From: Lepidurus packardi | Lineage: Eukaryota > Arthropoda > Branchiopoda > Notostraca > Triopsidae | Direction of reading: 5' to 3' | Length of the DNA: 64,000 nt | Assembly (NCBI GenBank): GCA_023053545.1 | Contig: JAKZAN010000006.1 | Location: 5,957,001 to 6,021,000, forward strand | Shown here: piece after piece, positions 8,165 to 41,505 of the stretch | Position numbering within the stretch: position 1 is the first letter of the stretch | Layout of the letters: the number at the start of each line of letters is the position of its first letter | Notes under the pieces: model-generated | What the model was told of the DNA's origin: nothing | Databases searched by the model: none | What the model saw: the letters and a program-made list of their open reading frames with translations, nothing else | Made by a program: the position numbers and the translations under genes

Positions 8165-8576
8165 TACTATTAGTTCTTACAAATACAAAACACACGTGAC
8201 ACTTTCCCGCGGGCCACAATTTTCTAGTCCGATAAATAGCCGCTACAATCGCTGCCTTCGTGAAAGTACTCCACGTCACCTGTAAAATAAAAACAATGGA
8301 GCTTTTACGAATTACGTGATAATTTGAAGCGAGCAGGTCGCCCAGAATTTTAAAATCGATCTATATGTGTATTTTTAACAGTAATGTATTAGTATTTTCA
8401 AGGTGAAAGCAGGCGTGAGTTTTCAAAGCTCACACTTTCCCTACCGTGTTTTTTTTTGGGGGGGCTGGGGGGATTATTCTGTTGCTGGCAGTCTACCAGT
8501 GTTTTTTTCCCCATTCATATTTTTAAAGCACCGTTTTTACCCTTATTCAGCCATTTGAAGTCTTTGCCCTGTTATA
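8165..8576. promoter_or_regulatory. Divergent intergenic region METTL16 / golgin
   Basis: 412 bp separating the two start codons, presumably a bidirectional promoter with both 5' UTRs. A poly-T tract followed by G runs (7 G then 6 G, about 8449-8474) stands out. Only two G runs are present, so a G-quadruplex is not supported. No TATA box was found that clearly serves either gene. Confidence 0.5.
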
Positions 8577-11500
8577 ATGGCTGATAAAGAGATGGATGGT
8601 TTTACCAAAAATGGTTCAGCGGTTCCCAACGAGGTATTTCTTGATAGAACTTTAATTAACTATGAATGTATAGTAGTTGCTAAGATACATATGTTTTTAG
8701 GGAGCAGCTATTAAGGTTACAGCACATAGTAAAATGACGCTACTTAGGCAACAAATGGAAGAGAATAGAAAGAAGCTTCAGCGAAGGGAGCAAGAGATAT
8801 CGAATTCCAAACGAAATTTTGAGCAACTGATGGGCAGTTTCGAAGGAATGGAAAGGTCGCTTAGCATTTCAAGCGTAGCTAGTGAATCCGATTTCGCCAT
8901 GTCCGACACCTCTGCCACTACGAGAAACCCTAAGGAAATTTTTTCGCCCGATGATTCCAGGTCTTCTTACGACAAAGACTGTCAGCTTCTCAAGGTACGC
9001 AATCATTTTTTAGATTTATACTTTCGTAACACCTTTTGTTTTCTGTATTGCATTGTGCGCTATAGTCTAAGTTGTCCAAGGTTGAGGAGGAGAAGAAGAA
9101 GATCAAAGAAGAGTGCGATAAACGATATCGTAATTTGGATGAGCTCAACAAAACTAATGAAGAGAAATGTTCCAAACTGAAGGCCGAAAATGCGCAGCTC
9201 TCTGAAAAAGTCAAGCTGCTTACCAACACCACCGACAAGCTTGAAGAAGAGAAGCGCAAATTGAAGGAAGAACTCAACGATAAGGAAGATGAAAAGGAAC
9301 TCGGTCAAATTGAAGTTGAAACTCGTTACAATCACTTACGGAAAGAGCACCAACAAATGCAAGACAGGTTCCATTATCTCCACGAGGAAGTAAACGGTAA
9401 GAACCAGCTTATCTCCGATTGGAAAACCCGTTACCAGTCCCTCGAAGAAACTTACGAGGAAATGAGTAACCGTTACCAAGTTCTGTCAGCGCAGTCCAAG
9501 TCATTATCCAACGAGCAACAAGAAGATGATCAAGTCTGGAAAAATCGCTATCAGCTGCTGGAATCCGAGCTCGAGTCAGTCAGGCAGACTAAACAGGATC
9601 TCGAAAAAGATTACAAGGAGCGTTGTGACGAGTTAAATATCCAAATTCAGTCACTGGAGTCCGAGAAGGAAAAACAAGCTGAAGATCTGCAAACTGCCCA
9701 ACAACTCCTCGATCAGGAGCGCGAAACGAGTCAATCCTTGCGAGTTGAGCTTACTTCTTTTCAATCCGAAGCTGGTCGCTTCACGCAGCTACTCGTCGAG
9801 CACGAAGCTCTCAGCAAAGAATTCCAAACTTTGAAAGATGCTTATGAGAAGCAAAGTGAAGATTACGGCTGTTTAACTCACAAATACCAGGAAGCTTCCC
9901 AATCTAATGGACCCCAACCTCAGCCTGTACCAGTTTCTCCCAATGGTGCTGCTTCTGCCAAATCCAAGAACCAGCGTGGGAAAAAAAAGGTTAAGAAATT
10001 CAGCGACATGGTTCCCCAACCCACAGTAAATGGAAGCGACACTGCTCCCAAGGCTAATGCTATGCTCCCCAACGAAATAACTGCCCTAGAATCCAAATTG
10101 GAAGAGGCTCTTCAGAGTAAAGACTTCCTGGAGGCCGAAAAGTTAGCATTGACAGGCCAATGGCGACAAGACGTTCAAGATCTGTGTGCATCCTTACTGG
10201 ACAACTTAAATAAACTCTGTCAAGCGGAAGAGCTTATTCATACATTACACGATCGTCTGAATATTTTGGAAGCTCAGCAGCCCCAGCCGGTAACAGAGCA
10301 TTTTGATGAGAGCTGGAAGGCTGAGAGAGCAAGTTTAGAAGCTGACCTGTCCAATATGCAGCAAGAGTTGAGTAAAAAGGAAAGCGAGGTTAGCCGACTG
10401 AAGCTCGAACTGACCGAATGGGGCACAAGCGAGGAAATGGGATCACTTCAAGATGCAGGCAAATTCGAAAAAGACTTAACGAATTTAGAAGATCAGGTAG
10501 CGTTGAAAGAATGCGGATTGGAAGAAGCCAACCAGGAGCTGTCGTTACTGCGTGCGGAATTGGAAGAATTGCGAGCTCAGACTGGTGACGAAGCCGGAAA
10601 TGCGCAAGGAGAAATTTTCAAGCTGAAAGCCAAACTGAAGGACTTGGAGTATTGGTTATCTGAGCGAAATAATGCCATCCATGTTCTAGAACAAGATTTG
10701 CAAGTCAAGTGCGGGTTAGTTCAGGAATTGAATCTGCAGTTGGAAGTCGATTCCCGCACGTTGCGCAACGCAGAAGAACAACTAGCAGATGACGCAGTAA
10801 ACCGAGAGGCATTGGAGGAACGACTGGAAGCTAAAGAAGCAGAAGTTCAACGGTTGCACCAAGCCCTACGGAAGTTAGAAGGTTTAGCCCAAGGCTTGGA
10901 TACTCAAGTATTGGAAAAATCTGCGGAACTGATGCGTTTGTGCGAAGACTTGCAAGAAGCTGAGTTGGTTTTGAACGAAAAAGATGCTAAGATTAAGACC
11001 CTGGTTGAAGAGAATCGCGATTTAAAGATCAGACGTGATAGCGACGCGGATTCATTAGCTAGTTTTACCGAGATATCGAAACATTGTCAAACCCTGGAAA
11101 TGCAGTTGCAAGATAGAGAAGACCAGCTGCACAAACTGCAGAGCTACAACAATCTGTCAGTCGCGCACGTACAGGAAGTCGAAGGCTCGCGTAAGGAATC
11201 CGAGAGCCGGTACCAAGTCTTGAAGGAACAAATGAAGCAGACCCAGGGCTTTTTAACCGAGAAGGAGGACGCGCTCGAAAAGCTGACTGAAAAGTACAAG
11301 AAAGTGGCTGCGCTTTTAAAGCAAAAATTGGTTTTGATCCAAAACTTGGAGGCCAAATCAAATTCCCAACCAGCGGCTGCAAAAGCAGTGACTGGTGCTC
11401 CTACTGGTTCTGAACTTCAAGCTTTGAGGGACCACGTGGCCAAATTGGAAGCCTCCAACAATCTGTTGTCAGCAGAGCTGCAGCAAAGAAAATCTGACGT

Positions 11501-14500
11501 AGTAGCGCTTCGTGATGAAATTTCGGCCAAGGACCAAATCTTCGCTGCTAACGAGCAGGATATGCGTCAGTTTTACGAACAACAACTCACGCAGTTATAT
11601 CAGCGTTTGGATGAGAATGAAGAGGTATTGAAAGGCCGATTAAGAGAGGCCAAAACTGAGATTGCGACTCTGAAACGCGATTTGGAATCTTCCAGCTGTC
11701 TTGTAAATGAACTTAACCGAGGAATTGAGAGCAGTCGATCTCGTGTGGACGAGCTCGAAATCCAGTCCCGTGAAACTGTTCAGCAAGCTTCCGAAACCCA
11801 GTTGCAGTCCTTGCAAGAGACGGGTTCTCGTGCGTTGTCCGAAGTTGCGGCCTTGCAAGAGCAATTAGCCAACTTGGTAACTCTCTGCGATCGGCAGTCA
11901 GCGGAGCTGGAGCAAAGCAAAATAAACATTGTAGCACTTCGCGAAGAAATCATGGCCAAGGATGAAATGCTGGCTGTCAGCGAGCAGGATTTACGTCAGG
12001 TTTACGAAGAGCAGCTCATGCAGTTGCACCAACGTTTGAGCGAAACGGATGAGGCTTGGAAAGGCCGTCTAAGTGAGGCGGAAAGCGAGATTGCGACTCT
12101 GCAACACGATTTGGAGAAATCGAGCCATCTTGTCCATCAGCTCACCCAAGAATTTGAAAGCAGTCGAATTCGAGCTGATCAATTGCAAAGCCAGTGTGAT
12201 GCGTCTATTCAGCAAGCCAGCACTTCTGAAAGCCAACTGGGTTCCTTGCAAGAGAATTTAGCAATAACGCAGAACTACTTGCAAGACGCAGAGAAACAGA
12301 TTGAAGCTTTGGAGACGGATTTGGACCGTTGCAAGTCTACTGTGGAGAAGCGTACTACAGAGCTTTCGCAAGCACAGCAACACATCGACGCTTTGTCAGC
12401 GGCCCAAGTGTCTCCGGCAGAACTACGAGAAGCTCAAAACTGTAACGAGCACTTGCTTAGCCAAGTAGGAAGCCTAGTGGATCAGTTAAAAAGCTCCGAA
12501 GAGGATCGACAACGTCTAGAAGATCAGATATACTCGTTGGAAAAATCCCTAAGCGAAGTTAATGCTGAATGTGATGCCGCCCGAAATGAAAACAAGACCT
12601 TTTATGAAGAGCTGCAGACATTACGCGAACGGTTACGTTTTTCGGAAGAGGTTAGCGAAAAGCTGCGTGCGCAATTAGTTCAATCGCAGCAAGAAGCCGA
12701 GCACGTGAAGGTTCAAGTTCAGCACAGTCAATCTGCGAATGAAGGATTGGAACAGGAATTGACTGCTTTGCGGGAACAACTAGAGCAGATTACGAGCTTG
12801 GAAAACGAGTTATTCCAAGTACGTGGAGCGTTGGGCGATGCGTTGCAGAAGTACGAAGAAGCCCAAGCACGTGTCGTTGAACTGGAAGCAATGATTGCCG
12901 CTAGTGAACCGGAGAAAGAATTAGAAGTTGTGAAAATGCAATGGGAAGAGTCCCGTCGTGGTCACGAATACTATTACCAAGAATACCAAAACGTGTTTGC
13001 CCAGTTGGAGTATGCCCAAGCTGAATTATCACGCATCCAAGCCGAATTAGAAACTTCCGAAACGGCGAGAGCCGATCTTATTCAAGAGCTAGAAGAAGGT
13101 CGAGTCAAGTCTGAAGAATATCCACTACATTTTGCAACGCTGACCTCTGAGCGTAATAATCTGGAAGAAGAAATGAACCAAGTGAGAGAGACTTTCGACC
13201 AATACCGTTCCAACATGCAAAGTCAGATCACACAGTATCAACAAGCGTTAGAGCTCCTTAAAACGAGCTATGCGGAAACCAGGGTGCAAACGGGAGCCTA
13301 TTTAAAGCAAGGGCGGGATGATTTGTGTCAAGATTTAGCCATTTCCTTGGCAAAGTGGCAAGAATTGGAAAGTATTATTCACCCAGTCCAACTCCAGTTG
13401 AGCCAAGAGCAAAGTCACTCGGCTGCCCTACAATCTCAACTCGAAGGAATGGTTACGCAGATGGAGGGGTTGCAAACTACCTGCGACTATAACTTGGCCC
13501 AGTGGCATGCTTTGGAAGCGGAATTGGAGCGTGTGAAAGCTGAGCATACTACGCCGGATTTGACTCAGACGGTGGACGAATTGAAAGTGCAGTTATTGGA
13601 AAGCCAGAAGAATGTCGAATACTACACCCAAGAATGGCACAACCAAAACGCCCAGCTTTGGCATTTGGATGGCCTGCTGCGTTCCGCCCAGCAAGAATGC
13701 GAGGAAACCAAAGCTGCAAACGTAATTCATACCCAAGAATTGACCGATTTGAAGGTTCAATTAGAACAGGTTAGCCAAGAACGCCGGCATTACCAGGACG
13801 AATGGGAAAAACTAACATTGAGCAGTGAAGAGAGTGTAGGTCTTATTTCGGGTTTGCAGAGCGATATTGCAGCATTGCAGAAGTACCAAGAAGATTTTGA
13901 AAACCAGACAGAAACGTTGGTTGACACCCAGAAATTGCTCAGTGAATTGAACAAGAAATCTTTCGATTATGAGCAAGATACTGAAGCCCTCCGCATGCAG
14001 TTGTCAAGCGAGCAGAATGTCCGACAATCGCTGGAAACGAAAGAAGAGAAACTGCGTGAACAGGTCCGCCATTTACAAGGACAGTTGGAGCGTTTGCAGG
14101 TCGATTTGAGCGAGTTGCAAAGTTTAATGACGACCAAGACTGAGCAAGTTGAGTACTACCAGACAGAGTGGCAAAGGGCGTTGAATCAACTTGACGGCTT
14201 ACATAGCGAGTTGAGTTTAGTAAGAAGTCGAGAAGAAGCTTCTCAAACGTCTCATCAGGAGTTAGAAGAGCTTCGTCATCAATGGCAAGAGCTACAAGCC
14301 AAGTGTGACGAATTCGAAGGGGAAGCTCGCGTAGCCAAAGCTCAAAACCAAGACTTGGGGGTCACGGCCGAGACTCAAGCTATCAGAGTGGCCGAATTGC
14401 TCGCTATGATGAAAGACCTCGAACAGAGCGTGAGCAGTTCGGAACAAACACGTTCAACAATGAACGGCGACATTCTGCAGTTGAGGGGCATGTTGAGTCA

Positions 14501-16537
14501 AGCAGAAGAAGATAAGAGTAATTTGCAGAGCCAAATTGACCAGATGCAGGATCAAATTACAACTTTACAAAGCGAAGCTGGGCACGTAGAAACTTCGTCC
14601 GAAAATCTGTCTAATCAGGTCACAATTCTGCAGGCAGGGTTGCAAGAGAAGGAAACCCAATGGGTTGCCCTGACGCAAGACTTCGAGCGACTGCAGAGGG
14701 ACCGCCGGAATTTGCAACAAGTCTGTAATCTGTTAGAGGAGGAAAAGGAAGAGTTAGAAGCCAAATTGGCAGCTTTGGAGTTGGATAAGGAAACATGGGA
14801 AGCAGATATTTTTCAATTGAAAGACCGCAATGCCATATTACAAGCAGAGATTGTTGGCTTGAAGGAAGAGTTTGCCCATAAGCGAGAAAGCGTGCCAATA
14901 CAGCAAGCCGCAGGACCGGATAATCGCATGGTGGAAGAATTGGAGCACTTGTTAGCTACTTCGAGGCAAGAAAGTGAGCGGTTGGCGGCTGAATTGCAAA
15001 GCGCCAAAGTCAAAAGTGCTAAATTCCTTCGGCAAGTCAAGCAATTGCAAGCTGAGCGTGAGAAATTCAAGCCCCCCAAGCTGGTCGATGATCCTTTGCA
15101 GCAGTTGGCTCAAGAAGAAATGCAAAGCCAAATTGACCAAGCCAACCAATCTAGCAGTGCCCTCAAGGAGAAGTTAACGGCTCTTCAAACCGAACGCGAC
15201 CGTTTAGCTACCCAATTAGATGTCATGCATACCGCCCAAGATACTTATTTGGAACATAAAGATAAACTGGAAGCGGAGAACTTACTATTGTTGCAGAGCA
15301 ATAAAGCTCTCTCAGCCACGGTAGCGTCTCTTGAGTGGAGGATCAGCGAACTGGAAGAAAATCTGCAGTCGCTGAAGGATTCTACGGTTGAAGAGAAAAC
15401 GGATACCGGCAAAGCTGAGGCGGATCTTAGTGGCGACGTGGAAGTAGTGGAGGACCCTGTAGTAGCGCATAAAGCTTGGGATACTACCGATGACAAGGAG
15501 CTTGTAAATCTGCGCGAAGAAATCACGTCGCTTTTAGAAGAAAAGGCTCAGTTGGCCCAAGAAAATGAGGAATTCCAAGATGTTTTAGATGAGTTTAAAG
15601 TGGAAGTTGATCGCTTGAAGTCCGAAAATGACTTTTACATTGATATCGTCCGACAACTGTCTATGACGGGCACTTTAAGTCCATCAACCATCGCGAAATT
15701 GAGAGAAGAGCTGCAGAGCAGTAACGTGGATTTGGATGTGAGTTTAAGCGAAGACGACTATGCGAACGAGCCGAACTACTGGCAAAAAACGTTGAACGAT
15801 TTACAAATGGAAGTCGAGTTCTTACGCTCGCGCAATTCCATGCTCATGTTCCGCCTCAAAGAAGCAGGGCTGGACTTGGAGGAAGATTTAAGTGAAGAAG
15901 ATAACCCTGAAGCGCTGGAACTGATGCACATGAAAGCAGCATTGGATAATTCGATGATGAATCTGCACGAGCGAGATGTACGCTGCCAAGAATTAGGATG
16001 GGAAATTTCCAAGGTATCCGTAATTCTTTTCTATTTTAAACGGAAGTATACTGACGATCTATTTTTTTCAATAGCTGGTAGAAGAACGCGATACTTTACA
16101 GATTCGATTGTCAGATGCATTGAGGCAGTTGTATGGTCAAGCAGTTCCGGTTGCCTCAGAAGCTGAGTCGCACTTAGATTTAGATAAAAAGTTAGTGGAG
16201 TTAATTAATTGAGAAATAGAGACTAATTGTTGTGTGTGTAGGTTACGTGCTATAAAGGATGCTAGTGTACAAATTGACCGAAATATGCAAGCGTATGGGA
16301 AAAATGCACGGGAAGCGGGAGAGAAAATTCGTAAGTTGTTTTAATACGGCTTAACGAGCTTGCCTATATTCACGATATACCTATAGAACGTCCTTCGCCT
16401 GGTACGACAGCATTGTTGGCCCAGTGGCTTAGAGGAAAAAGGTAAGTTACTGGATATACTTATGGTTCTTTCAATATCAATGTAATCAAGTTTGTTTTGG
16501 TGTTCGTTTTAGCCTTCATCGTGTCCATCATGTGTGA
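8577..16537 (+). CDS. Giant coiled-coil Golgi protein (golgin, lava-lamp/giantin-like)
   Basis: Predicted long coiled-coil tether or scaffold, probably at the Golgi. Exons: 8577-8633, 8701-8994, 9066-16013, 16075-16190, 16242-16330, 16387-16441, 16513-16537; 2,527 residues. The ATG at 8577 opens with MADKEMDGFTKNG. A short basic N-terminal helix (LLRQQMEENRKKLQRREQE) and a Ser-rich linker precede more than 2,200 residues of nearly continuous heptad, Glu/Gln/Leu-rich sequence. A proline-rich break with a lysine cluster lies near 9900-10020. The C-terminus is short and basic (TALLAQWLRGKSLHRVHHV). No GRIP domain (conserved Tyr-containing helical module) or transmembrane segment was seen, which argues against golgin-245 and canonical giantin. 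The lava-lamp-like assignment rests on overall architecture and the N-terminal helix, so it is tentative; other giant coiled-coil scaffolds remain possible. An internal duplication and an aromatic repeat are listed separately. Confidence 0.72.
11469..12282 (+). repeat. Internal 143-residue tandem duplication in the golgin
   Basis: Protein residues about 919-1061 and 1062-1190 align end to end. Both copies share the order SAEL, VALR(D/E)EI, AKD, EQD(M/L)RQ, QRL, KGRL, EIATL, ESSR, QQAS. The nucleotide offset is exactly 429 bp, for example gtagcgctt at 11502 against gtagcactt at 11931. Third positions have diverged, so the duplication is old. Confidence 0.85.
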
Positions 16538-17380
16538 AACCTCTTTTTCAAAGGAATGTTCATAGCTGAATTTGCTGTAAGGAAAGAAAAAGAACGGGTG
16601 GCGTTTTATTCAACTTTATTGTTTCAAAAGAGAAGTCAGTTAAGAAGTTAACCAGTAGAAGGGCGGGGAGGGTTAATACAAAAGTTCTGTACAAGAGCTG
16701 CAAAGATTCTTTACACACTTGGCAGGCTCGTCTAATTCAACTTCCATGTAAGCCTAGTTTCAGAGTTCGTTTTTTAAGATCACTATGTGCTTTTATGTAG
16801 CGTTAGTTCCAGGCTACGACGTTAAGTTCAAGTTTCTTCTTCTACCCTTACCGCTGCACGCTTAACTATGCAATGGTTAAACCCTTCAAACCCTGCGTTA
16901 ATTGATTAGAGTATTCCCCAACTGTAATGATTGAAGTCCAAACTTTGGCACACTTGTGTTTTTCGCATCTGTTATATAAAGGGTTAACAACTGCCTCATT
17001 AAGAGTTAAAGTTAAGCACACGCAGCAACACTGCAATGCAATGCAAAAAACTGCAATGCCACCGAAAAGAAAAAAAGAAACACAGAAAAACACTAAAGCT
17101 GTCTTTTGTCAAAAGTGGGGATAACAGAACCTTATTCAATAATTCATTTGCACTTGGTGCAAAAAAAAGTTGCATGGAGTTTCGTTTCTTTGTGCATTTG
17201 CATGGACCTCGGTAATGCGCTGATTGCCAAAAAGAGGTTCCAAAAAAGCTGGGTAATTTGTATTTTTTAATTATAGTCACAAAAATATGTCCTCTCTTTG
17301 CTGATTCCTTTATCCTAACCTAAAATGTTTCGCGCTGCTGTAGTTTTCGTCGAAGCTTCGTTTTGCAACATTTGGGGTAA
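16538..17380. other. Convergent 3' intergenic region golgin / Ras
   Basis: 843 bp between convergent stop codons. It contains AT-rich UTR-like sequence and a CA-repeat-poor, adenine-rich stretch near 17025-17100. The small ORFs here have no recognisable similarity or splice context. Nothing further supported. Confidence 0.55.
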
Positions 17381-18188
17381 TTAGAGGATGATGCATTTGC
17401 TGCGACTCCTTTTCTTGCCGGGCGGTCTTTGGGGAGGCCTCTCCAATGTTTGGAATCGCCGAACCAAACGAACCAGCTCGTGGAAAGCCATGTCCACGTT
17501 CATGCGAAGTTTCGCACTAACTTCCACGTAAGGGATTTTAAGCTGCCTAGCCAGAGTCATGGCTTCATCTGAGTTTACCTAAAACGAAAAAAAACAAGGT
17601 GTTGGCTTATGGAGGAGTCAGAGTCGGCGGTTTTGTTTAATGTATGCCTTCTTTGCAAACTTACAGCGCGTTGGTGCTCCAAGTCAGCCTTGTTTCCTAC
17701 CAGCAACATGGGAAACTCGTCCCTGTCTTTAACGCGTAAGATTTGTCGATGGAATTTGTAGATTTCATCGAAGGAAGATCTGTCTGCCACACTGAAAACC
17801 AGCAAGAAGCCTTCTCCGGACCTCATATATTGTTCTCTCATGGCTGAAAATTCTTCTTGTCCAGCCGTGTCCAATACTACAATGCATTATTTAGGTGGTG
17901 CCTTATCTAACTTGTATAGTAAATAAAGGATAACAAAACTTACTGTCGAGCTTAGCAACCACATCATCAATAACGCATTGCTTGGTGTATGAATCTTCAA
18001 TTGTGGGATCATAATCGGTTACGAAGTAACTCTAAAAATGTAAGAGTTTAAGAAAGTTCTCACAAGGGAAACATGCAAATTACCTGAATGAACTGAATGG
18101 TAATGGCTGATTTGCCTACACCTCCCCCACCCACTACCACTAATTTGTAGGTCTGTGCGCTGCTTTGACGGTCTCCAGCTTTGGACAT
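17381..18188 (-). CDS. Ras64B: Ras-family small GTPase, R-Ras / Ras64B (Ras2) type
   Basis: Membrane-anchored GTP/GDP switch. Exons in transcript order: 18188-18084, 18031-17944, 17876-17665, 17578-17381; 200 residues. The P-loop is GGGGVGKS, as in R-Ras, with extra glycine where H-Ras has GAGGVGKS. Switch I effector region is [12 protein letters not shown], switch II is [19 protein letters not shown], and the guanine-specificity motifs are GNKAD and a SAK-type motif (VSAKLR). The tail is basic (GKKRSRSK) and ends in a CaaX box, CIIL. A CaaX box ending in Leu is normally geranylgeranylated. The N-terminal extension ([12 protein letters not shown]) is short. Sequence is closest to insect Ras64B and vertebrate RRAS/RRAS2 rather than MRAS, because switch I carries SYTKQ. 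It lies head to head with PARL. Confidence 0.95.
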
Positions 18189-18624
18189 GTTCGCAAGTAA
18201 TAAGACTAAAACTGTTAATTCCTGCACCTGCTCAAAGTCCTGAACTGACAGCCCTCCACTCAGAAAAAGTATAAAATACGACCAGGTTTTCCTAGCCTTT
18301 TAAAGTTGCCAAGGACGCCGTCACTATCTTGTGACGCTAGACAGATGACGTCATTTCTCCCAGGGGAAGAGGGGCATGGTCATGTTTGGATTCATCTTTT
18401 GCATTCACGCATCCGCAACGATTTCTAAATAAACTTCCCGGCGGGTTGGATACGTAATTCAGCTAGTTTGTCAACCTAATTTTGAAATGTACGTATTAAG
18501 TCACTCAAAAACATGGTGCAATTCTAATAATTTTTTTATGTGGATATAGAAAGGCATTGCTCTGCCTTTGCTGCTGATCTGCTTAATTTGAACTTTAATT
18601 AAAGCACTTGTATACTTGAACAGA
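18189..18624. promoter_or_regulatory. Divergent intergenic region Ras / PARL
   Basis: 436 bp between two opposed start codons. It holds a perfect palindromic CRE octamer (TGACGTCA) at 18346-18353 and several gtgacg/gacgcc half sites around it (18313-18350). It presumably serves one or both genes. Confidence 0.5.
18346..18353. promoter_or_regulatory. CRE palindrome TGACGTCA
   Basis: Exact match to the CREB/ATF consensus, 158 bp upstream of the Ras start codon and 272 bp upstream of PARL. Chance occurrence is possible, but its promoter position makes it worth testing. Confidence 0.5.
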
Positions 18625-20128
18625 ATGAGCCTAAGTAGGCTTGCTACATCTTTTAGCTGTCTCTCGAGACAGACAGCAAAGTATAACTTCAATTTTCCGT
18701 TTATAAAGCAGCCGCTGAGACTTTTCAAGTCCCAAGGCGGAAGAAGGCCTACAGAAGAACTCGGAGAGAAACTCTTTGGACCGGTTGACAAAGTTGGTAT
18801 TGCCAAGAATGGTGTTAGCTCACAGCCTTCCCGACCAAGCCTTATAAAGCCATTTTTGTTCACAACTGGGGTAATATCTAGGATTACGTTTTCCATTGCT
18901 GCTAAATTTTAGCTTTATTTATATCTAGTTTTCTGGATCGGTATTTGTTGGAGCCACCATCTGGCAATATGAAAATGCTCTTAAAAAGAAACTGCACTTA
19001 ACAAAAGAAAAGGTTTCCTCGTGGTTCTCACAACAGTTCAACACACCAAAACATGTAAAATAATTACAAGTCATTGCGAAATTAAGTATCGTTTCATCGC
19101 TTCTTCTAGGGAGAATTGCGTCAGCGTTTGAATACTTGGTGGAGCACGCAAACAGAAGGCCAGAAATGGTTCTATGCCATTTTAGTGCTAAATACGTGTG
19201 TATTCCTGGCATGGAGGAATCCTAACTGGCATAGAGCTATGACCACATACTTCGCTTCTTCACCTCAGTCTAGTACATATCTATATCCCTGAGACTTCTA
19301 GGTTATCTTAAGCAGTTTATTACCAGGTGTCACATCTTTACCTCTACTCTTGTCCACATTTTCGCATTACTCGCTGTTCCATTTGGGAGCGAATATGTAC
19401 GTTCTTCACAGCTTCGCTTCTTGTAAAATTCTCAATGGTCAATTGTTTAAAAATAATGGGGCTAATATCAATTCTAGGGGCGGCCCATGCTATGGGAAAG
19501 GAACATTTCACGGCCTTTTATCTTAGCGCTGGCGTGATTGCCTCGTTTGTCAGTCTCGTACATAAAGTGACGCTGGGATCAGCGGGTTTTAGCCTCGGGG
19601 CGGTATTATTACTGTGATAAATTTGTATTTCTTGTATATAAGCTGCATTTTCTAGTCTGGAGCGTTGATGGGGGTTGTTGCTTATGTATGCACACGTTAC
19701 CCGGATGTTCAGTTGTCGATATTATTTCTCCCCCAAATTTCATTCTCAGCTGATTCCGTATGTTAAGAAGCCGTCATTCAAAACATAGCATGATTTATCG
19801 TCTAAATTTCTAGGCTTTGAAAGCGCTCATTATTTTCGATGCTGCCGGTCTTTTACTTCGGTGGCGAATGCTGGATCACGCAGCGCATTTAGGAGGAGCC
19901 TTTTTTGGCTTGTAAGTGTATATTAAACCTTTATATTGACGGTATAAGTATATCTTTTGTACTTATTGTAACGCCTAAGTTGGGTGAAAGGGAAGGTTTA
20001 TTCGAGAGTTTTAAAATTTGATACATTTTAATTTCAGGTGGTGGGCATACAGAGGGGAACAGATGATATGGCACAATAGAGAACCTTTGCTTCGATGGTA
20101 TCACGATTTTCGATCGAGACCGCAATAA
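18625..20128 (+). CDS. PARL: Mitochondrial rhomboid intramembrane protease PARL (Rho-7)
   Basis: Serine protease of the inner mitochondrial membrane; family members cleave PINK1, PGAM5 and similar substrates. Exons: 18625-18870, 18929-19054, 19110-19272, 19327-19422, 19478-19602, 19656-19757, 19814-19911, 20038-20128; 348 residues against 379 in human. The N-terminus ([20 protein letters not shown]) is Ser/Arg-rich without acidic residues, as in a mitochondrial presequence. Rhomboid landmarks are [19 protein letters not shown] in the second core helix, the catalytic serine in GASGALM (Ser253, across the exon 5/6 junction), and the catalytic histidine in DHAAHLGG (His311, last helix). The tail IWHNREPL matches PARL. 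Choosing the donor at 19423 keeps the [15 protein letters not shown] segment the same length as in human. It converges on the next gene with 110 bp between stops. Confidence 0.94.
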
Positions 20129-20238
20129 GTCTTGATATATAGCCTCCGCATCCATAATGTTATACGATAAATTGTCTTTATGGTACTAAATCCGTTCACT
20201 AATTTGCGCCGAAGTAAATTATTCGATTGCACTTATTA

Positions 20239-31852: not shown

Positions 31853-34800
31853 ATGGCCTTGATCATGATGGCTGCGTCACAGTGGGAGCAGTTGATGGTT
31901 TGCTCCGATCAATTATTCGACAAAACTATCCGAACTATGGATGTTCAGGTAAGAGACTCAATGTTTTTATTACTCACGGATTGCTTCTTGCTACAGCCAA
32001 CTATAACTCAGCCACTCGAAGGCTATTAGGTAAAAAAACGCAAAGGATTGACCGTCTATACAAGTTTTTTTTTTCCTTACCTCATCGAGTGCAAGGGGTT
32101 CTTTTGTCCTTGACGTTTCTAAAAATGGTCAAGTTTTATGTTTACCAATTATTTTAACGGTAGGGAATGTGTCTTAGATCAAAAGATTTTAAAATACGTT
32201 CCTGCGATTTTTAATCCAAGAAAAGCGCAACCAAATTAAGTTGAGCATATATAATAATTTGCTTTCTTAAACAGGCATTGATGGCAGTCGTCCTCATCTT
32301 CCAAGAAGCCATGGCAGTCGAGCAGCATACCTTCAACTCTCTAAGTCAACAATTGGACAAGTGCGTCAATTTGCTTAGTCAGCAACGATTGTCGGCTGCC
32401 TTGTGTGCAAGTCAAACCCGCTTGGCACAATTGTGTTCTCGCAGCATGAAGTGTTTCATCCAGGTACAGTTCTATGGCACATTTACATATTTTCTAAATC
32501 TTCCAATGCTTTTGGTTTTCTTTCTTACTGGGCTGTTCGCGACCGCTTGATTTGCAAACAGGACATGGGAGTGCCCTAAGCCCGAGCTCTCATAAATCGC
32601 AACAGCTTCTCAGTAAAATCTCCGCAGTTTAGCTGCGGCTGTCCTTGTACGCTATAGCTTGTTTCGCAGCTCCTATCCCATTCGTATTTATTTTAGAAAG
32701 GTCATATTAAACCTTTCGAACTGATCCACGGCTAGTCTCAGAGATAGTAAACATTCTCTTAGTGAACGTGTTGTTGAAACGACCACCTGACCGGACACAT
32801 CTGTTCGTCCTATCTTCGTGCTCGTGCTTGTAGTTAACGGCCAGGTGCTTTGCTTCATTGATCAGTACCCCGCACTTCAGTCACATCTCTTGTGACGGAG
32901 AAAGAGCGTCTCTCGTGAGGTAAAACTAACTAGTGCCTCGTTTACTATAAAGTTCTAACCTCGCTTTCTGTACTAATTTAAGCTTCAATGAAGAACGGGG
33001 TTAAGTGATGGTAACCGACTGTCGTGCCTGCTGTGTTTCTTCTTTTTTTATTTTTACTCGAAACTTGCAATGAAAGATTAGTCAACACAGGCTTTACCGT
33101 CTTCTGTATAATTAATTTTTATCCTAATGAAAAATCGGACCTTACACCGTTTTGTACTTATTTCCATCGCTGACAAAAGAAAGCACACCTTGGATGGTTG
33201 TATCGCATTTTCATGCGATGCGCTTGTTGATAGCCTAAAACCTGTTTCAAATCTTGGTATAAAGTGTAGTTTTATAGGTCTCATTAACATAGCGATGTTA
33301 TTTAGAGAAATAGAAAATCTCGCCCCGGATGCAACGCTGTCTCGGTAATTATCACTGGCGTCAAATATCAGATACCGAGCTATATCCCCTTGCACTTTTT
33401 TGCAAAGTTTATCACGAAACAAGCTACCGCCCAGCGGCGATTTACTTTCCCTTGGTAGCATTATGCTATACTTTTAACTTTCGCTTAAGCTGGTGGTTTT
33501 CGTACAATGGGTACCTGACAGATGGCGACGTTATACACGTGTTTCACTAACTTTTTTTATTCGTTCTTTTAACAGCAAACCGCGCTGGAAAAGAAAATCC
33601 CCTCGGCCCGAACGCCTGAATTGAAAAAGCGTTTACACTCCACGAGTTCGACTTTATCTACGTCCTCGAATACTTCTTCGAACGTGACTGTTGTTTCGCT
33701 AAACACGCAAGAAGATGACCTAATTGAGGATCAGCCACTTCGCAAATCCACCACGTTAATCATTCCGATTGAACCTTCTCCTAGTCCCGTCCCAGATAAG
33801 TATGAAAGCTTGGTTTACATTAGTGGCAATGTGGACGACAAAACAATATCGGCGGACTTTCGGTCCCTAATTACGATCACGGCTCCCCCACCCAAATTAG
33901 TACAGACGAAGCTTAGTATCCAAGTAGGCACGTCGAGTCCAACGGCAAATTCCACTAATTACAACTGGAAATCCTGCACCAATATCACCTTACCTAGCGA
34001 ACCTCTGGTTTCGGAAAAAGGCCAAGACATGGATACTGTGCGTAAGCTCCTGTATTTGGATCACCAAGAGCGGCACTGGGGAAGTCAAAAGCGACAACAG
34101 GTGGAACCTGAGCCCAAGGCGCCCTCATCAGCAGAAACCCATCAGGCCAATGCACTTTCCGCAGGGCCGAGTGCGTTTCCGGCCTCTTCTTCTTTGGCTT
34201 CTTCGTTATCCGTTACAGCTTCAATGTTAAAGCATCAGAATACGCCTGGAACTCTTTGTGGACAGACGTCAGTGTCGCCCAGTGAGAGTGAGAGTAATCT
34301 TCAAGTTACAATTTCGGCGTTAGAGAGAGCAAGGGAAATCCGCCCTTGGAATCGTTCACGGACACAATTCAAATTAGCAGTTTTTCGGGGTGAAGAATTT
34401 GACAACGATGATTTGTCGTACTTTAAAGAGCGAATAGGCATTGCAGCTGATGCTGATCTTCCAGAGCCTCCAACCAGTCCTGGATTGATACAACGCGCAA
34501 GGAGCTATACTTCCGGACTAAATTTAGTGTCTGCCATCAAATCATACCCCTTGTCCCGCTCCACCAGCGTACAGTCCTTAGAACCTGTCCGAAAGCCCCA
34601 GCGCGTACCTTCGGTAGAAGATATATTGCAATCGGTAAAGAATTTGCGCCAAGCCATGGTCCGCAACCAGGAAGGATCTTTCAAAAACCGGCGCCCTACG
34701 GACACTAGCCATTACACCGAACCTCGTCGACTAAAGGTCTCATCACCAGTAGAAGACACTGAAGGCCACGTCTACGAAAATTTGCATGGTAATGGAGACG

Positions 34801-37800
34801 ATCATTATGAAAACATCCGGGTGTACGACGCGCCTAAGAAGACAACTACACCGTCCACTGCCAACTTTGCGCAAGGTGCCTTCGTAAGCTCGCACTATCA
34901 AAACGTAGACTTCCAGGAAGGAATTGACGAGCCAGATGATGGAGCTTACGAAGATCATATTCCTACTTACGCCAATGTTAACTCCCTGCACCGATTATAT
35001 GACAAGCCAAAACCGCACAAGCCGCTGGAACGTGAAACCAATGAATACGACTTCCCACGCACTACCGCCCACATATATGCCGCTCCCCAACCTTTAAAGA
35101 CGGTGGTAATTCCAACTCCACACGAATATGAGTACGATCATCCCAAGTCTTTAATCCCGCAATCGGCCTCCTTATTACTGCAGCAACGCATAATTGACCA
35201 TGAAATTGATTGCAGAGATTGCGATGCAGATTCCTTGGACGGCTATTCGGACTCACATCCAGATATTCCAGATCCAGGTAATGGATTGAGTTTTTCACTT
35301 TCTTTGTATTTAAATTGGTCTCAGTGGAATTTACATTTACATGGCTACGCTTACCACAAGTCGGTGACCGCTACGGTATTGTTGTTTGTAACAATTCTGA
35401 ATAAGCACCACGAGGCTGAGGCTCTGGGCTATATGATAGATTGAACCGTCCATGAACTGTTGGAAGTCTGACCATCTGCCGTGCGAAAGAAATCGTTACA
35501 AGGTGCGCGTAGTGGTCTACCTTGATATTTTGGTGGACTTTCTTGCTCTTTGGAGTCTTAAAACAACCAGGTGGTTGCCCTGTAGACGACACGCAGGTCC
35601 TTAAACTTCAACTTTTTGTACATGAGTGCTTTATCAAGATGTGTCTATAAATCGGTAACATAGAGATGGTAACTGGGAACTGTGTTGCTATTATCACGAG
35701 CGCTTTTTCGTGAAGGATTGTGGAAGGGAATGAGAGCGTGATGACAAAGGAGGTTTCCTTACAGCGTTTCTAACCCGAGTTGGAAGTTGAAAGTTACTGG
35801 GGGAATGGTTAAGCACGTTGGAGATTTTTACACCAGCTTTTAGTTGCTTAAGTAGGGTGGAAAGGAGTAGAACAATTTCGTTCACGTTGGAAAAGTTTTC
35901 TGTAGTGTTTAACTCTATAAGTGTCGTAGCTATTTTTACATCTTAATCATTTTAGATTACGGAAGTGACGAGGACATGACCCATCGGCGAGATGGGGATA
36001 ACGTTGACGAAGGCATTGAAGAAGTACCCCGTGGTGGCTACGATGATCCAGGTAAAAAACAGCGAAGAGAAATGGTAACAATCACGGACACCGAAACTAA
36101 TAATTATTTCCGCTCCACTGAGCTAAAAGCCAAATTTTAAGAGTTGTAAGCCAACGACCCATGACTTCCCCCTATTCCTGTCTTGCTACAGTGTTTTATT
36201 TTTTCCTGCCAAACGACACACCAAGCTAAGAACAAAGCCATTGTACTTCATTTTTTCTGCATCCCAATCCCTAATAAGCCAGCTGGCGAGCTGGAATAAC
36301 TCAAATTTTTCTTATTTATTTTACATTGTTGGGAAAACATTTCATGGTTGTTCGAGTAGCTTTATTGCAGAAATGCAAATACTCTCACATTTTTTTTTCT
36401 TGGTGGGTTTGTCTGCCACTAAAGTCGGGTCGGCGTCGCCGCAAAACCAGTCAATTCTCAATTGCATAATTACGTCTAGTCATTGCTCTGTCTGGCATCT
36501 TATAACTTGCAATTGACCTCAATAGCGGTACTTGTCGTGTTATTTCTTATTAGTGAGCTTGTACTAAATATATACCCTCCCAAATCTCGCCGTTTTTAGG
36601 ACTGGCCATTATTTTGGAAGAACCAGAAGAGGAAGATGGCGAAGATAGAATGTCATCATCACGTTCTTCTTTGCAGCGTGGGCTTACCGATGAAGAGTTG
36701 GGATGTCGACGAGCGGTGTCGTCTTCTTCGAATTCCTCGCATTGTGCAGAAGATGAAAGTAGTACCAGCAGTGGAGTCCATAGCGAAGGTGAATTTTAAT
36801 TTTGAAAGTTATATGACTGGAAACTGTCACGATTGTTGTCTTGACAAAACCGAAAGTCGGTCTAAGGACTTGGTAGTTGCTCTTTAGAGGTAGTACGGTT
36901 GAAGTCAAAACTTTTGCTTATTGTCATTGAGTCAAGTGGAAAGGAAAGGGGAACTCAAATTCGCTATTAACATTCATGGCAGGTATAGTCAAACATGTTG
37001 ACACTTTGATCACGTTAAAGGGCAAGGAACGTCACGGGAATTATAGTAAGTCTCTGGACTTCGAGCACTTGAGCCGCGACTGGGCGTATCAGACATGTAA
37101 TTGCTTAGGGACTATCTCATTCCTTTTCCCCAGATTGGTACATTATTTAAAAGAAGCGTAGACTATGTAGTTTGAAAAGGTGTAAATGAATATAAAGTGA
37201 AGGAAAGCTTGTAACTAGTTGGGAAGGAAACATGCTACATCTTGTAGTAGCTATTAGTTACCTTGTGAAGCCTTTGCATCGTAAGTCGAAAAATAATGTG
37301 TTTTTTTGTTTGTTTTTTAATGGAGAAATGTCTCCGGGGTAAAAACCCAAAACTCATTAAAGTGTCCCAATGGCTAGTATAGCAATTTTTTTAGAACTAT
37401 TTTAATAGTAAGTACCGTTAGTATTACTGTTGCGACATGTAAGCAAGGGCTTTTAACGTAAAGTTTAAATCGAAATTCCTTCCTGCCAGTTCTTCAGTGT
37501 GTTTGTTTTTTTAGGAAAAAGGTGTACTCGTTGGGAGGTTCAAACTGATGTGCCTGGAAAATAAGTAAAGTGAGATGGTAATGACAGTATACTATTGTTT
37601 TTCAGCCTGTGTGATATCGTTACGCATATGACCGCTAGGAAACCGAAGTTTAAAGAGCGCTTGTACTAGCATAAAGTGTTACTTTACGCTATTTAAGTTT
37701 CGAGCCAAGCCTAAGACGTGACCGACCAATGAACTTTCTCTGTTGCATTCCGTAATGTTGTCGAGCAAGTTTTATTGTACCACTTTGGAGTATAATATAA

Positions 37801-40800
37801 CTCCGCTAAAAGCTGTAAAGTGTACCCCAGGGAGAGTGTATTCCATGCGAAGCTCTACAAAACACGTTTTCCTAGTATAGCTGTAGGGCTGAGTTGTTGA
37901 CACTTGACGAGACACGAGAAAATTATGAATACTGTGATGAATACTACATCCGTTCCATTATAACAGGATACGCTTGTTGGAAAACAATAGCAACACATTT
38001 AACCCTTGCTTCCCGTACCAGTTTTTCCTTTGTATTCTATGGTATGAACGCTCGAAATTCTATAGTATCGCGTGGATTGTTTGCATTAGTATGGTACCCG
38101 TATTCATTTTCTGTATCGGTTTCAGAGACTGTACGTCTAGCGGAAGGCACTCCGGAACCCGACCTTCCCGATGTGCCTGACGTCGACGACGCAGTGGATT
38201 TGGGAGCTCCGTACTTGACGACATCCAGCAATCTGAACTGTGCTCCCCAAGCAGACCGTTGCCTCGAAGTCTACAACGAAACTCTTCGACAAAGGAATTC
38301 GAAATCCCAAAAGGTAAAAATAGACAAAAAAAAATAATAAAATAAATTGAATTTATCTTCGCTCACTTAAATTGTATTCAGAATTGAGCTTCACTTATTA
38401 CAACTAGTAATTGAAGAGAGCAAGGGATATAGTTCTGAGATTACTTATGCAGCTCAGAATGGAGGTGGGCGTATTGGGTATTCTTTCGCATATCCGTTAC
38501 GAGCCAAATTATTTTTTAGTTGATATAATACGCTCTTGCTTTGGTACGTGAGTCCAAGTTTGGCAAATAGCGTGGGAATCCCGTGCTTTTTATACGAGAA
38601 ATGTAAGCGGGGCTAAGTTTTTGAAACCCATTCATTGTTAGCTGCTACTTACTAGGATTGTCCGCACTTGAAAGAATATATTTCTATTGATCGTACTGCA
38701 GTGCAGACTCATTCAGATCCTACATTCTTACTACGGACAAGTTGGCCCTAATATAGTATGTAAACTTCTTGAAAACCATGAAACGCGGTCTTTTTTGACG
38801 TGTGACCCGTGAAATTCAAAATCAGTGGGTCTGAACGGAAATCCGCGAAATGTGAAGCTAAGGTTTTTGTCCTTTCAAATTTAAAATTGTGTGTCCTAAA
38901 TTCTTGCTGGAAAATTGAAGTGGAATTTGTGGTCTCGTTTGTCTTTAGGTGACCATTCAAGAGTCGAGTTACGGTTCAGAAACGATTCACAATCAAAAGA
39001 AACTACTCCCGTCGGTTAAGGCGTTAAGAAGCCAATTTGAGACCAGCAAAACCGAGCCTCCGGCAAGACGACCAATCACAGCACAAAATAATGCAAATAG
39101 AGCCTTGAAAGAACAATTGAGCGATGCCAGTAGCGATAGTGGCGCAAGTGTCAGCAGCCGGACTAGTCTCGACGAAGATCAATTTACTACGACATCTTTT
39201 GCCCTTGAGAATTGCAACGGTTCCATCCCCGTAAGCCGCGCCACAGAAGTTTTCGGCATGGATAACAAGTCTACTAAAAACACCCAAGACGTAGAACCTA
39301 TTCATAAGCAGTTCGGGACAATTCATCCTGATTTATTGCGCCCGAGATCAATCACAAAGAAGTGGGACCCCGTAAGTTAATACAGTTCAGTTCGACTATA
39401 TTTTCTTGTCAGGACTATAATGTCTCCTTTTTGTATCGCAGACTGTATTGTTGGCTGACCTGTACGATGTTCCTGTGCCGGTTCCTTTCATGTCGTCCAG
39501 TGAGGAATTTGTCAACATTGAAGGCTATTTAGATAAATTACCCACCGGAAAACGAAAGGGAACGTTTTGGAATGCCTGGAAAAGACGCTACTTCAAAGCT
39601 AAAGATGGCTACTTACATTATTATCAGGTAATTATTTAACCTTTTGCTTGCACTTCCTACGTTGGAAAACTGGCAAGTAATAAATTACGTCGTTTCTAGA
39701 GCAATTTGGCTGACAAACCTGTTTTTTCAATGCAACTGATGGGTGGACATATTGATTTCATGGAATCGAATATGTTAGGTATCGATGATGAGGCAAGTTA
39801 TTAATATTTTGTTATTAATGGATAGTCAAGACTGAATTTTTTCCGAGAATAGAAAGGCAAATATGTGGTCGTCAAATGTTCCAGTCTTCAAGAAGCCGAG
39901 AAGTGGCGCTTAGCACTAATGACACACACACAAGAGCATTACATTGCTACGTACGTGCAGCCGTATCCTGTGCCTTCAAATCCGGCTCTTTTACTGGATA
40001 CTATCATCATTGATTTAGGATCTTCTTCAATCAGAGCTGGGAGGTTAACGTCACAACGTAAGATTAATTACCACAAATTGTCTTATCATTGATTCAATTC
40101 GTCCCTATAGCGACCCTTCCGGAAGTATTTTTTCCCTCCGTTGTAGCTGTGGATAAGAATGGCGTGAGTTTGGCGTGCGGGTCTCAAGTGTTTCATCCAC
40201 AAATTCGTTCCAAGTGCACATTAAAGTATCCTATAAAGCCATCACAAAAAATTTCCAAGGTAAAAAAGAGCAGTTTTCCTTTTAGTAAGCTTGCATTTCT
40301 TACACTTGTGTTTGCGTGTTTTAGTACTCGATAGACATGGACGGCGTAGCGGTATTATTGCGAGCCGCCTTTACGGAACTGAAGGTCGACCCTATTCGGT
40401 GCAACGTACAAGTGTGTGTCCCGCGCACATTATCGCCTGCTACACAAGCACAACTTGTGCAAATATTGATGGAACACTTCCTTGTTCAAGCTGTGAATGT
40501 AACCCACCAAGCTATTTTGGGTCTAATGTCCTACAATGCTACGTCAGGCGTCGTACTGGATATAGGAGAGCGCATAGACGTAGTTCCTATCATGGATGGT
40601 AATTTGAAGTTTTATTGGGCAAAACCAGCTGAGACTAAATAGGATATTTTGTGTTTACTTACGGTAGGTTACATGTTGGAAAGTGGAGTTTCTCGCGTGC
40701 CTTATGGTGGGCTTCATTTAGTGGATCATTTACGTCATTTCCTTTTGCAAAAGCATTACGCCTTGGTGACGGAAGTTGAAGCACTTCTTATTAGACTTGT

Positions 40801-41505
40801 ACTGGAAAGACTGGCCTTTGTTTCCGGACCCGATACAGAGCAATACACCGACGATTTGAATCTTGCAAAGAAAAACCCTGATCTTGTTGCTGAATCCGTA
40901 AATTTGCAAGCATATAGCAACGAGCAGCTGCCTTGGAAGTAAGATACAAACGGTAGGGCAACGCGGAGTTCTAAGATTATATATTTTCGGCTGTAGTGAG
41001 ATAACATTGGATACCGGAAGGTTTCAAGTTACAGAAGGTCTGTTCCACCCAGAAGCTTGGGGTTTGGATAACGAAGGCATTCAACATTTGGTAGCAAAAG
41101 CTATCCAGGTAAATTTTGTAAGAAAATTCATTAAAAACTCATTAACTATCTTATACACTCATAATAGGAAAGCGGAATAGATCTTAGGAAACACATGTGG
41201 CGGAGTATATATGTGACTGGCGGTGTGACAATGCTTCCCGGATTTGTAGCCCGATTAGAGGCGGAATTGAAGCGTTTTGCACCTCCGAATGTTCAGCCAA
41301 AGGTATAACTTAGCAGATGAATTTAATCGTTGGAAACTAAAAGTAGAAATCCGTGTTTAAGGTTCATGCCTCGCCGTATCGGTATCATGCATCTTATGTT
41401 GGAGCGTGTGTCCTAGCCAATAGTGAAGCGTTTGATCAAGCGAAGGTTACCCAAGAAGAATGGAGATCTTTAGGACCAAATGTTGTTCGCAGATGGAACT
41501 TGTAG
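31853..41505 (+). CDS. PH domain-actin-related protein fusion with a long tyrosine-motif N-terminus
   Basis: Exons: 31853-31948, 32275-32463, 33576-35277, 35956-36051, 36600-36788, 38126-38313, 38949-39371, 39442-39627, 39700-39792, 39853-40057, 40111-40259, 40325-40598, 40668-40938, 40997-41108, 41168-41302, 41362-41505; 4,452 nt, 1,483 residues, phases consistent. The start is the ATG in a good Kozak context (caaaaATGG); earlier exons are not excluded. Residues 1-95 are helical (MALIMMAASQWEQLM, EQHTFNSLSQQLDKCVNLL). Residues 96-960 are mostly disordered, with several YxN tyrosines. A PH domain occupies about 985-1085 (NIEGYLDKLPTGK, WKRRYFKAKDGYLHYY, terminal helix EAEKWRLALMTH). An actin-type ATPase fold occupies about 1100-1483: phosphate-1 IIDLGSSSIRAG, phosphate-2 VVLDIGERIDVVPI, adenosine loop YVTGGVTMLPGF. 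No named orthologue was recognised. It may link phosphoinositide membranes to an actin-like module; that is inference. Confidence 0.85.
32464..33575 (+). other. Long intron (1,112 nt) of the PH-actin gene
   Basis: Bounded by CAG|gtacag and ttaacag|CAAACC. No repeat or nested gene was recognised inside; short ORFs on both strands are not supported. Confidence 0.6.
35278..38948 (+). other. Cluster of long introns in the PH-actin gene
   Basis: Introns 35278-35955, 36052-36599, 36789-38125 and 38314-38948 are 550-1,340 nt, ten times the typical intron of this window. The exons between them are small, acidic and Ser-rich (for example IILEEPEEEDGEDRMSSSRS). No nested gene was seen. These exons are candidates for alternative inclusion: 35956-36051 is 96 nt and 36600-36788 is 189 nt, both multiples of three. 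Confidence 0.5.
39793..39852 (+). other. GC-AG intron in the PH domain
   Basis: The only intron in the window that needs a GC donor (GAG|gcaagt), ending in agaatag. The reading frame before (SNMLGIDDE) and after (KGKYVVVKCSS) is continuous PH-domain sequence and no nearby GT fits. GCAAGT is the usual consensus for this minor class of U2 introns. Confidence 0.75.

Follow-up and report, generated by a model that had tools for sequence, protein, structure and literature searches.

A 64,000-nucleotide stretch of the Lepidurus packardi genome (hereafter the window, whose positions are used throughout) contains a gene which encodes, in a single polypeptide, a long low-complexity tail, a PH domain and a complete actin fold. 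This PH-actin gene, located at positions 31853-41505 of the forward strand, codes for a divergent actin-related protein (Arp). Its product could serve as a scaffold Arp recruited to membrane, where it would couple signalling by phosphoinositides and tyrosine kinases to the attachment sites of actin, a proposal whose chances of being right we judge to be about even.

The exons were joined on splice signals. Splicing of the region joins 16 exons into an open frame that encodes 1,483 residues (4,452 coding bases including the stop codon), which reproduces exactly the exon number, the consistent phases and the protein length given in a preliminary description of this DNA. GT-AG borders are found in 14 of the 15 introns, the exception being intron 9 (39793-39852), a GC-AG intron with the donor sequence GCAAGT. 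All introns fit in phase, and stops are absent from all 16 exons in the frame used. A processed copy or pseudogene was rejected on the basis of these 15 introns, the absence of stops in any exon and the failure to find a second locus. Codon usage, scored against a small training set made of the other open frames of the window, is weak coding evidence. The frame used outscores the two others in 14 of the 16 exons, including all seven of exons 1-7; in exons 15 and 16 another frame scores higher but contains stops. Only six exons (1, 2, 4, 5, 6 and 14) score higher than 0.093, the maximum among 134 non-coding open runs. As the scores of exons 8-16 mostly lie within the non-coding range, the coding case there is carried by the domain matches.

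The PH domain is recognized by its profile and, at modest E-values, by matches in the PDB. When the whole protein is scanned, PF00169 matches with an E-value of 2.6e-4 and 21.9 bits and does not reach the cut-off of 25.1 (Pfam). Scanned as a separate 134-residue piece, the same region exceeds this cut-off (28.2 bits, E-value 3e-6, profile positions 2-99 of 105) and, together with the tryptophan of the C-terminal helix in AEKWRLAL, this match assigns it to the PH family. Among PDB sequences, 11 match the PH region at E ≤ 1, the best being pleckstrin (E-value 0.0058), and all of them bear names (pleckstrin, TAPP1, pleckstrin-2, GRK2, cytohesin-3 and others) which we take to be those of PH-domain proteins. 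The beta1-beta2 region is basic (KRKG...WKRRYF), presumably a motif of the phosphoinositide-binding type, and membrane control of the protein appears plausible. In an exon-by-exon genome search with PF00169, the locus is not among the 69 matches at E ≤ 0.01, which is expected of a domain whose sequence is divided among three exons. No close donor of the PH domain was found in the genome either, the best E-value being 0.007 among the 30 PH loci of the 69 matches listed.

The junction between the two domains lies within exon 10. This exon, flanked by introns of 60 and 53 bases, encodes the C-terminal PH helix with its tryptophan (...SLQEAEKWRLALMTHTQ...) and, in the same open frame, the phosphate-1 loop of actin (...LLLDTIIIDLGSSSIRAG...). 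Since exon 10 holds both domains, the fusion is independent of any doubtful splice, and the single polypeptide previously described (low-complexity tail, then PH domain, then complete actin fold) is borne out by splicing, by the Pfam matches and by this exon. An ATG ahead of the phosphate-1 loop in exon 10 might in theory be the start codon of an independent actin fold, as would be required if the PH and actin parts were two genes wrongly joined. Such an artefact was rejected as exceedingly improbable, given the one open frame shared by both domains and the shortness of introns 7-15 (53-72 bases), which leaves little room for a terminator and a promoter. The link of exons 1-6 to the remainder is less sure. 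Introns 1-6 span 326-1337 bases, in contrast to introns 7-15, and these exons are linked by phase and splice sites only, as would also be seen if the tail (exons 1-6) and the PH-actin part (exons 7-16) formed separate transcripts, the join of the two domains being real and the 1,483-residue protein over-assembled. However, all phases fit, the frame used is the best-scoring one throughout exons 1-7, and the genome search turned up neither a second copy of the tail nor a tail-less version; we consider this alternative very unlikely.

The actin fold is supported by a near-full-length match to PF00022 (E-value 1.2e-51, 176.1 bits for a cut-off of 27, residues 1103-1480, profile positions 5-407 of 410), which establishes membership of the actin family (Pfam). 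Both domains named in the preliminary description were hence recovered by profile search, the PH domain above its cut-off only when scanned alone. In the PDB, 157 sequences match the actin part at E ≤ 0.001 (best 3.5e-44), the best 60 of the 157 being actins, and in another search the best 60 of 164 were also actins. The protein is not a conventional actin, as it shares 27.6-28.7 per cent identity with the four actins of the genome and keeps 12 of 24 nucleotide-pocket positions. An identity with bacterial syringactin was rejected (49 bits versus a cut-off of 300), the match reflecting the common fold only.

The actin-family rows used for the identities, for the contact positions and for the tree are merged exon fragments, some of which extend a few residues into introns. 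On this basis, the nucleotide site retains D11, G13, S14, Q137, D154, G156, G182, R210, E214, G301, G302 and M305, and is altered by K18R, D157E, G158R, K213L, K336Y and other changes. The H161 equivalent is not conserved (D, with an adjacent gap) and the phosphate-2 loop is degenerate, with DIGERI in place of DSGDGV. The same count gives 19/24 for the Arp1-like gene of the genome, 18/19 for the Arp2-like, 7/24 for the Arp5-like and 7/19 for the Arp4-like, the PH-actin gene being intermediate. While the phosphate-1 and adenosine motifs are recognizable as claimed, the phosphate-2 motif thus is not intact, and the designation of the fold as an actin-type ATPase is undermined by changes that put normal ATP hydrolysis in doubt. 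From its sequence, we infer that the fold has weak or no hydrolysis, and it would probably not polymerize normally. The D-loop is two residues short, and the stretch 110-118 keeps 1/9 positions versus 6/9 in the Arp1- and Arp2-like proteins.

The N-terminal tail resembles no known family in the searches made. Its first 115 residues have no PDB match at E ≤ 10 and only sub-threshold Pfam matches to domains of unknown function (DUF), and residues 116-961, scanned as 116-515 and 516-961, match no Pfam family at E ≤ 10. Exon 3 contains a cluster of YxN and YxxP motifs, which if phosphorylated would be SH2 sites of the Grb2 and Crk/Nck type. Within residues 501-660, a stretch chosen after the cluster had been seen, three YxN and five YxxP occur versus shuffled means of 0.48 and 1.09; among 20000 shuffles, 151 reach the YxN count, 24 the YxxP count and none the sum of 8. 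Over residues 1-960 there are four YxN and seven YxxP, and among 5000 shuffles the YxN count is reached in 87, the YxxP count in 5 and the sum of 11 in none. One YxN and four YxxP lie outside the exon 3 cluster, and the PH-actin protein has no YxxM motif.

The window corresponds to positions 5957001-6021000 of contig C5 in a 108.6-Mb assembly, which also contains loci on small contigs. Contamination was rejected as the source of the gene, the window lying near 6 Mb of a contig whose matches extend beyond 12.4 Mb. A search with the PH-actin block gave 32 matches at E ≤ 1, comprising its own locus and actin-family exons only, and a search with the tail gave seven matches at E ≤ 0.1, all in its own locus; as such searches score the best candidates only, a second copy was not found rather than shown to be absent, and the gene is apparently single-copy. 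Searching the genome with PF00022 returned 48 exon matches, which group into the PH-actin gene and 17 other loci, 11 on large contigs and 6 on small ones. Judging by their motifs, we take the large-contig loci to be four conventional actins and one each of Arp1-, 2-, 3-, 4-, 5-, 6- and 10-like genes. The presence of these separate Arp-like loci makes the PH-actin gene an extra Arp; that it is a renamed canonical Arp of one of these seven classes was accordingly rejected. For Arp8, the sole candidate lies on small contig C319.

The six small-contig loci (L009, L014, L018, L019, L021 and L025, on contigs C119, C120, C166, C228 and C319) are divergent members of the actin family and include a second Arp5-like and a second Arp6-like gene. 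Their G+C content is 0.437-0.479, versus 0.374-0.432 for the four large-contig loci checked. They look like the genes of a second eukaryote in the assembly, either a cobiont or a contaminant.

In a tree of 16 actin-family rows including the PH-actin gene, from which L018 and L025 were omitted as short, the PH-actin gene sits on a long branch and its position has no support (3.1/34 at the node). Ten groupings were tested for it by the approximately unbiased (AU), Kishino-Hasegawa (KH) and Shimodaira-Hasegawa (SH) tests. The grouping as sister of just the four actins fails the AU test (p 0.046), whereas neither KH (0.133) nor SH (0.253) rejects it; none of the nine others (with each of Arp1-6 and Arp10, with Arp1 plus the C228 gene, and with the actins plus the C119 gene) is rejected, their AU p values being 0.12-0.54. 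The actin fold contains six introns, and two of the five that could be numbered (introns 12 and 15, Table 1) coincide exactly with introns of the actin family in this genome. Intron 10, in a part of the gene left unaligned, did not enter the count of possible matches; intron 13 (codon 246, phase 2), one base from an actin intron at 247 phase 0, was treated as unshared, and intron places in the divergent Arps are best-score fits, some of them doubtful. The chance of at least two shared introns depends on the list of introns admitted, from 0.06 to 1.5 per cent overall: 0.06 per cent with the 7 positions of the actins and the Arp1-like gene only (6 introns), 0.26 per cent with 17 hand-picked positions from which ambiguous ones were omitted (5 random introns), and 1.0 or 1.5 per cent (5 or 6 introns) with all 33 best rows. 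These shared positions suggest that the gene arose from an actin-family gene with introns, and not from a processed copy.

A PH-actin protein has already been reported in Caenorhabditis elegans, where F42C5.9 is tabulated as 'Actin-like PH domain' (PMC3651406). In the same study, its silencing by RNA interference (RNAi) in mab-5(gof) left AQR in the rearmost position in 80 per cent versus 92 per cent (PMC3651406). F42C5.9 has also been named an actin related protein and flagged as having an RNAi phenotype, and its GFP fusion was seen at the cell membrane and in filament-like and dense-body-like structures (PMC3096668). In addition, it is listed as 'Actin' in an antifungal RNAi screen (PMC4850687) and is found among the actin-cytoskeleton proteins which change in abundance after exposure to a pore-forming protein (PMC9704757); as read, its entry stands in the increased part of that table, above the decreased heading. 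The claim that no named Arp carries a PH domain therefore fails in part: a counterpart of the same make-up is annotated and partly characterized, the likeness being one of printed description only (PMC3651406; PMC3096668). With the localization in print in 2011 and the two-domain make-up by 2013 as a table entry, the L. packardi gene looks like a further member of this little-studied kind. Among the open-licence papers listed, none analyzing the PH-actin architecture as such was found, and of those listed for PF00022 with PF00169 none concerns this architecture by title.

Based on these features, a mechanism can be proposed. The PH domain, whose basic beta1-beta2 region ends in WKRRYF, would bring the protein to phosphoinositide-rich membrane, where phosphorylation of the tail by tyrosine kinases would recruit SH2 adaptors of the Grb2 or Crk/Nck type. 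The actin fold, its nucleotide site weakened, would not cycle as a filament subunit and might instead provide actin or actin-binding proteins with a surface for docking or capping. The protein would thus be an anchor or scaffold where the cytoskeleton attaches to the membrane, in the manner of F42C5.9, the actin-like/PH protein described at the cell membrane and at filament-like and dense-body-like structures. We infer this scaffold role with help from the published localization of the nematode protein. If F42C5.9 is orthologous, Ecdysozoa would have retained a PH-tethered Arp for which the literature searched offers neither family name nor mechanism, and the actin fold itself would bear the module that targets it to the membrane, with no separate adaptor recruiting it. 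As C. elegans is a laboratory animal, with published RNAi effects and a GFP fusion for F42C5.9, the idea is testable at once. More tentatively, and with rather less confidence than in the scaffold role itself, PH-Arps may represent an overlooked old Arp class of arthropods and nematodes, outside Arp1-11, whose members use a catalytically weakened actin fold as a direct adaptor from phosphoinositide and phosphotyrosine signals to actin anchoring.

Two other functions of the actin fold have to be weighed against this scaffold role. In nuclear Arps of chromatin complexes, there is precedent for an actin fold kept as a protein-binding module. The PH-actin protein might similarly be a pseudo-actin scaffold making no contact with actin, that is, a phosphotyrosine adaptor of the Gab/Dok/IRS kind placed by its PH domain. 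The degenerate nucleotide site and the poorly kept 110-118 stretch would fit such a role, as would the combination of a PH domain and a tyrosine-motif tail, which resembles docking adaptors. However, the filament-like and dense-body-like localization of F42C5.9 points to the actin cytoskeleton (PMC3096668), and we regard an adaptor without actin contact as unlikely. That same filament-like localization (PMC3096668) would suit the opposite view, in which the actin fold is a working ATP-dependent filament subunit or nucleator which co-polymerizes, its PH domain tying the filament end to the membrane. Retention of D11, G13, S14, Q137, D154, G156, G301 and G302, the best PDB matches all being actins (the best 60 of 157 and the best 60 of 164), and a plug and D-loop whose distance from actin is similar to that seen in the Arp2-like gene are in line with this view. 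Against it stand the loss of the H161 equivalent, K18R, K213L, K336Y, the altered phosphate-2 loop, the shortened D-loop and the 1/9 score of the 110-118 stretch, and a filament would probably have little room for the PH domain and the long tail at the N-terminus. A working filament subunit is consequently quite unlikely.

Several observations weigh against the scaffold proposal. The PH match is modest, being under the cut-off in the scan of the whole protein. The tyrosine motifs are short, and further YxN/YxxP sites occur at residues 691, 969, 1088, 1092 and 1346. The nucleotide site diverges from that of actin in canonical Arps as well, so that its degeneracy is no proof of a loss of ATP binding. 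The plug (3/10) and the D-loop (2/11) score much like those of the Arp2-like protein (3/10 and 3/13), and the contact stretches, which give a mixed answer, do not settle filament entry. One scan of viral_contigs returned no relative of the PH-actin gene. Kinship of F42C5.9 with the L. packardi gene is drawn from the printed description, and the structures marked by its GFP fusion were called unknown by the authors, who warn of the C-terminal tag and of overexpression (PMC3096668).

Table 1. Features of the PH-actin gene, in window positions; aa, amino acid residues of the 1,483-residue protein
Feature	Position	Strand	Description
Exon 1	31853..31948	+	start codon; helical-looking N-terminus; aa 1-32
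Exon 2	32275..32463	+	aa 33-95
Exon 3	33576..35277	+	long low-complexity tail, probably disordered (by composition)
Tyrosine-motif cluster	34713..35144	+	exon 3; YxN at aa 495, 506, 536, 560; YxxP at aa 475, 512, 570, 586, 596, 615
Exon 4	35956..36051	+	from splicing
Exon 5	36600..36788	+	rich in acidic residues and serine
Exon 6	38126..38313	+	from splicing
Exon 7	38949..39371	+	low-complexity; opens the short-intron block
Exon 8	39442..39627	+	PH domain begins
PH domain span	39514..39915	+	aa 986-1075; exons 8-10, introns included
Exon 9	39700..39792	+	middle of PH domain; GC-AG intron next
Exon 10	39853..40057	+	C-terminal PH helix with tryptophan and actin phosphate-1 loop DLGSSSIRAG
Actin fold span	39997..41493	+	aa 1103-1480; exons 10-16, introns included
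Exon 11	40111..40259	+	from splicing
Exon 12	40325..40598	+	Q137 equivalent and degenerate phosphate-2 loop VLDIGERID
Intron 12	40599..40667	+	in the G168 codon, phase 1; matches an intron of 4/4 conventional actin genes found in the genome
Exon 13	40668..40938	+	from splicing
Exon 14	40997..41108	+	from splicing
Exon 15	41168..41302	+	adenosine motif VTGGVTMLPG
Intron 15	41303..41361	+	before codon 329, phase 0; matches an intron of the Arp1-like gene
Exon 16	41362..41505	+	stop codon; ends about where actin ends

Elsewhere in the window, a single 2,366-codon open frame at 9066-16166 (+) is mostly coiled coil and golgin-like by eye. By eye also, exons at about 17380-18200 (-) resemble a Ras-family small GTPase, those at about 18640-20130 (+) a rhomboid-type membrane protease, and an open frame at 63169-63999 (-) a JmjC histone demethylase of the KDM3 type. 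Transfer RNA and Rfam scans of the 64-kb window gave no matches, and none of its seven tandem repeats lies inside the PH-actin gene.

The assembly also contains other cox1 matches. On C52, C214 and C43 (L026, L027 and L028), contigs outside C1-C6, three cox1 matches have no internal stops under the bacterial code, and one lies on DNA of 66 per cent G+C; they are probably bacterial DNA in the assembly. On C1, C2, C4, C5 and C6 there are many nuclear mitochondrial insertions (e.g., L029 and L031), with cox1 pieces containing TGA codons. In the insertion L029 the genes run nad2-cox1-cox2-atp6-cox3-nad3, nad4 being on the opposite strand; we take this order to be arthropod-like, fitting an arthropod or a close relative. 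In L031, an open frame at 6857-8629 with CCHC zinc-knuckle-like motifs lies beside mitochondrial pieces and is retrotransposon gag-like by eye.

Among known systems, F42C5.9 resembles the L. packardi protein in that a PH domain and an actin-like domain are described for a single gene product (PMC3651406). It differs in belonging to a nematode, as opposed to an arthropod-like genome, the comparison being one of printed description. The view that actins and known Arps are stand-alone folds, from which the preliminary description had started, does not hold, since both Dictyostelium filactin and Drosophila Arp53D carry added N-terminal parts (PMC2441452; PMC8291977). Like the PH-actin protein, filactin has a long N-terminal extension ahead of its actin fold, but its actin domain is highly homologous to conventional actin, in contrast to about 28 per cent identity here, and the term 'PH domain' occurs 0 times in the main text of the paper (PMC2441452). 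Arp53D and other non-canonical Arps share a divergent actin fold and a localization that needs the N-terminal tail; in Arp53D the tail which directs the protein is 40 residues long and predicted to be mostly unstructured, and no PH domain is named in the domain description (PMC8291977). The canonical Arps (Arp1-6, 8 and 10/11) have the same actin fold, and the Arp1-like gene has one intron in common with the PH-actin gene, whose protein adds a PH domain and a tail of ~960 residues and which has no supported placement among Arp1-6 or 10. Finally, the docking adaptors Gab, Dok and IRS presumably share the association of a PH domain with clustered tyrosine motifs. Unlike them, the PH-actin protein has its tail before the PH domain and an actin fold at its C-terminus.

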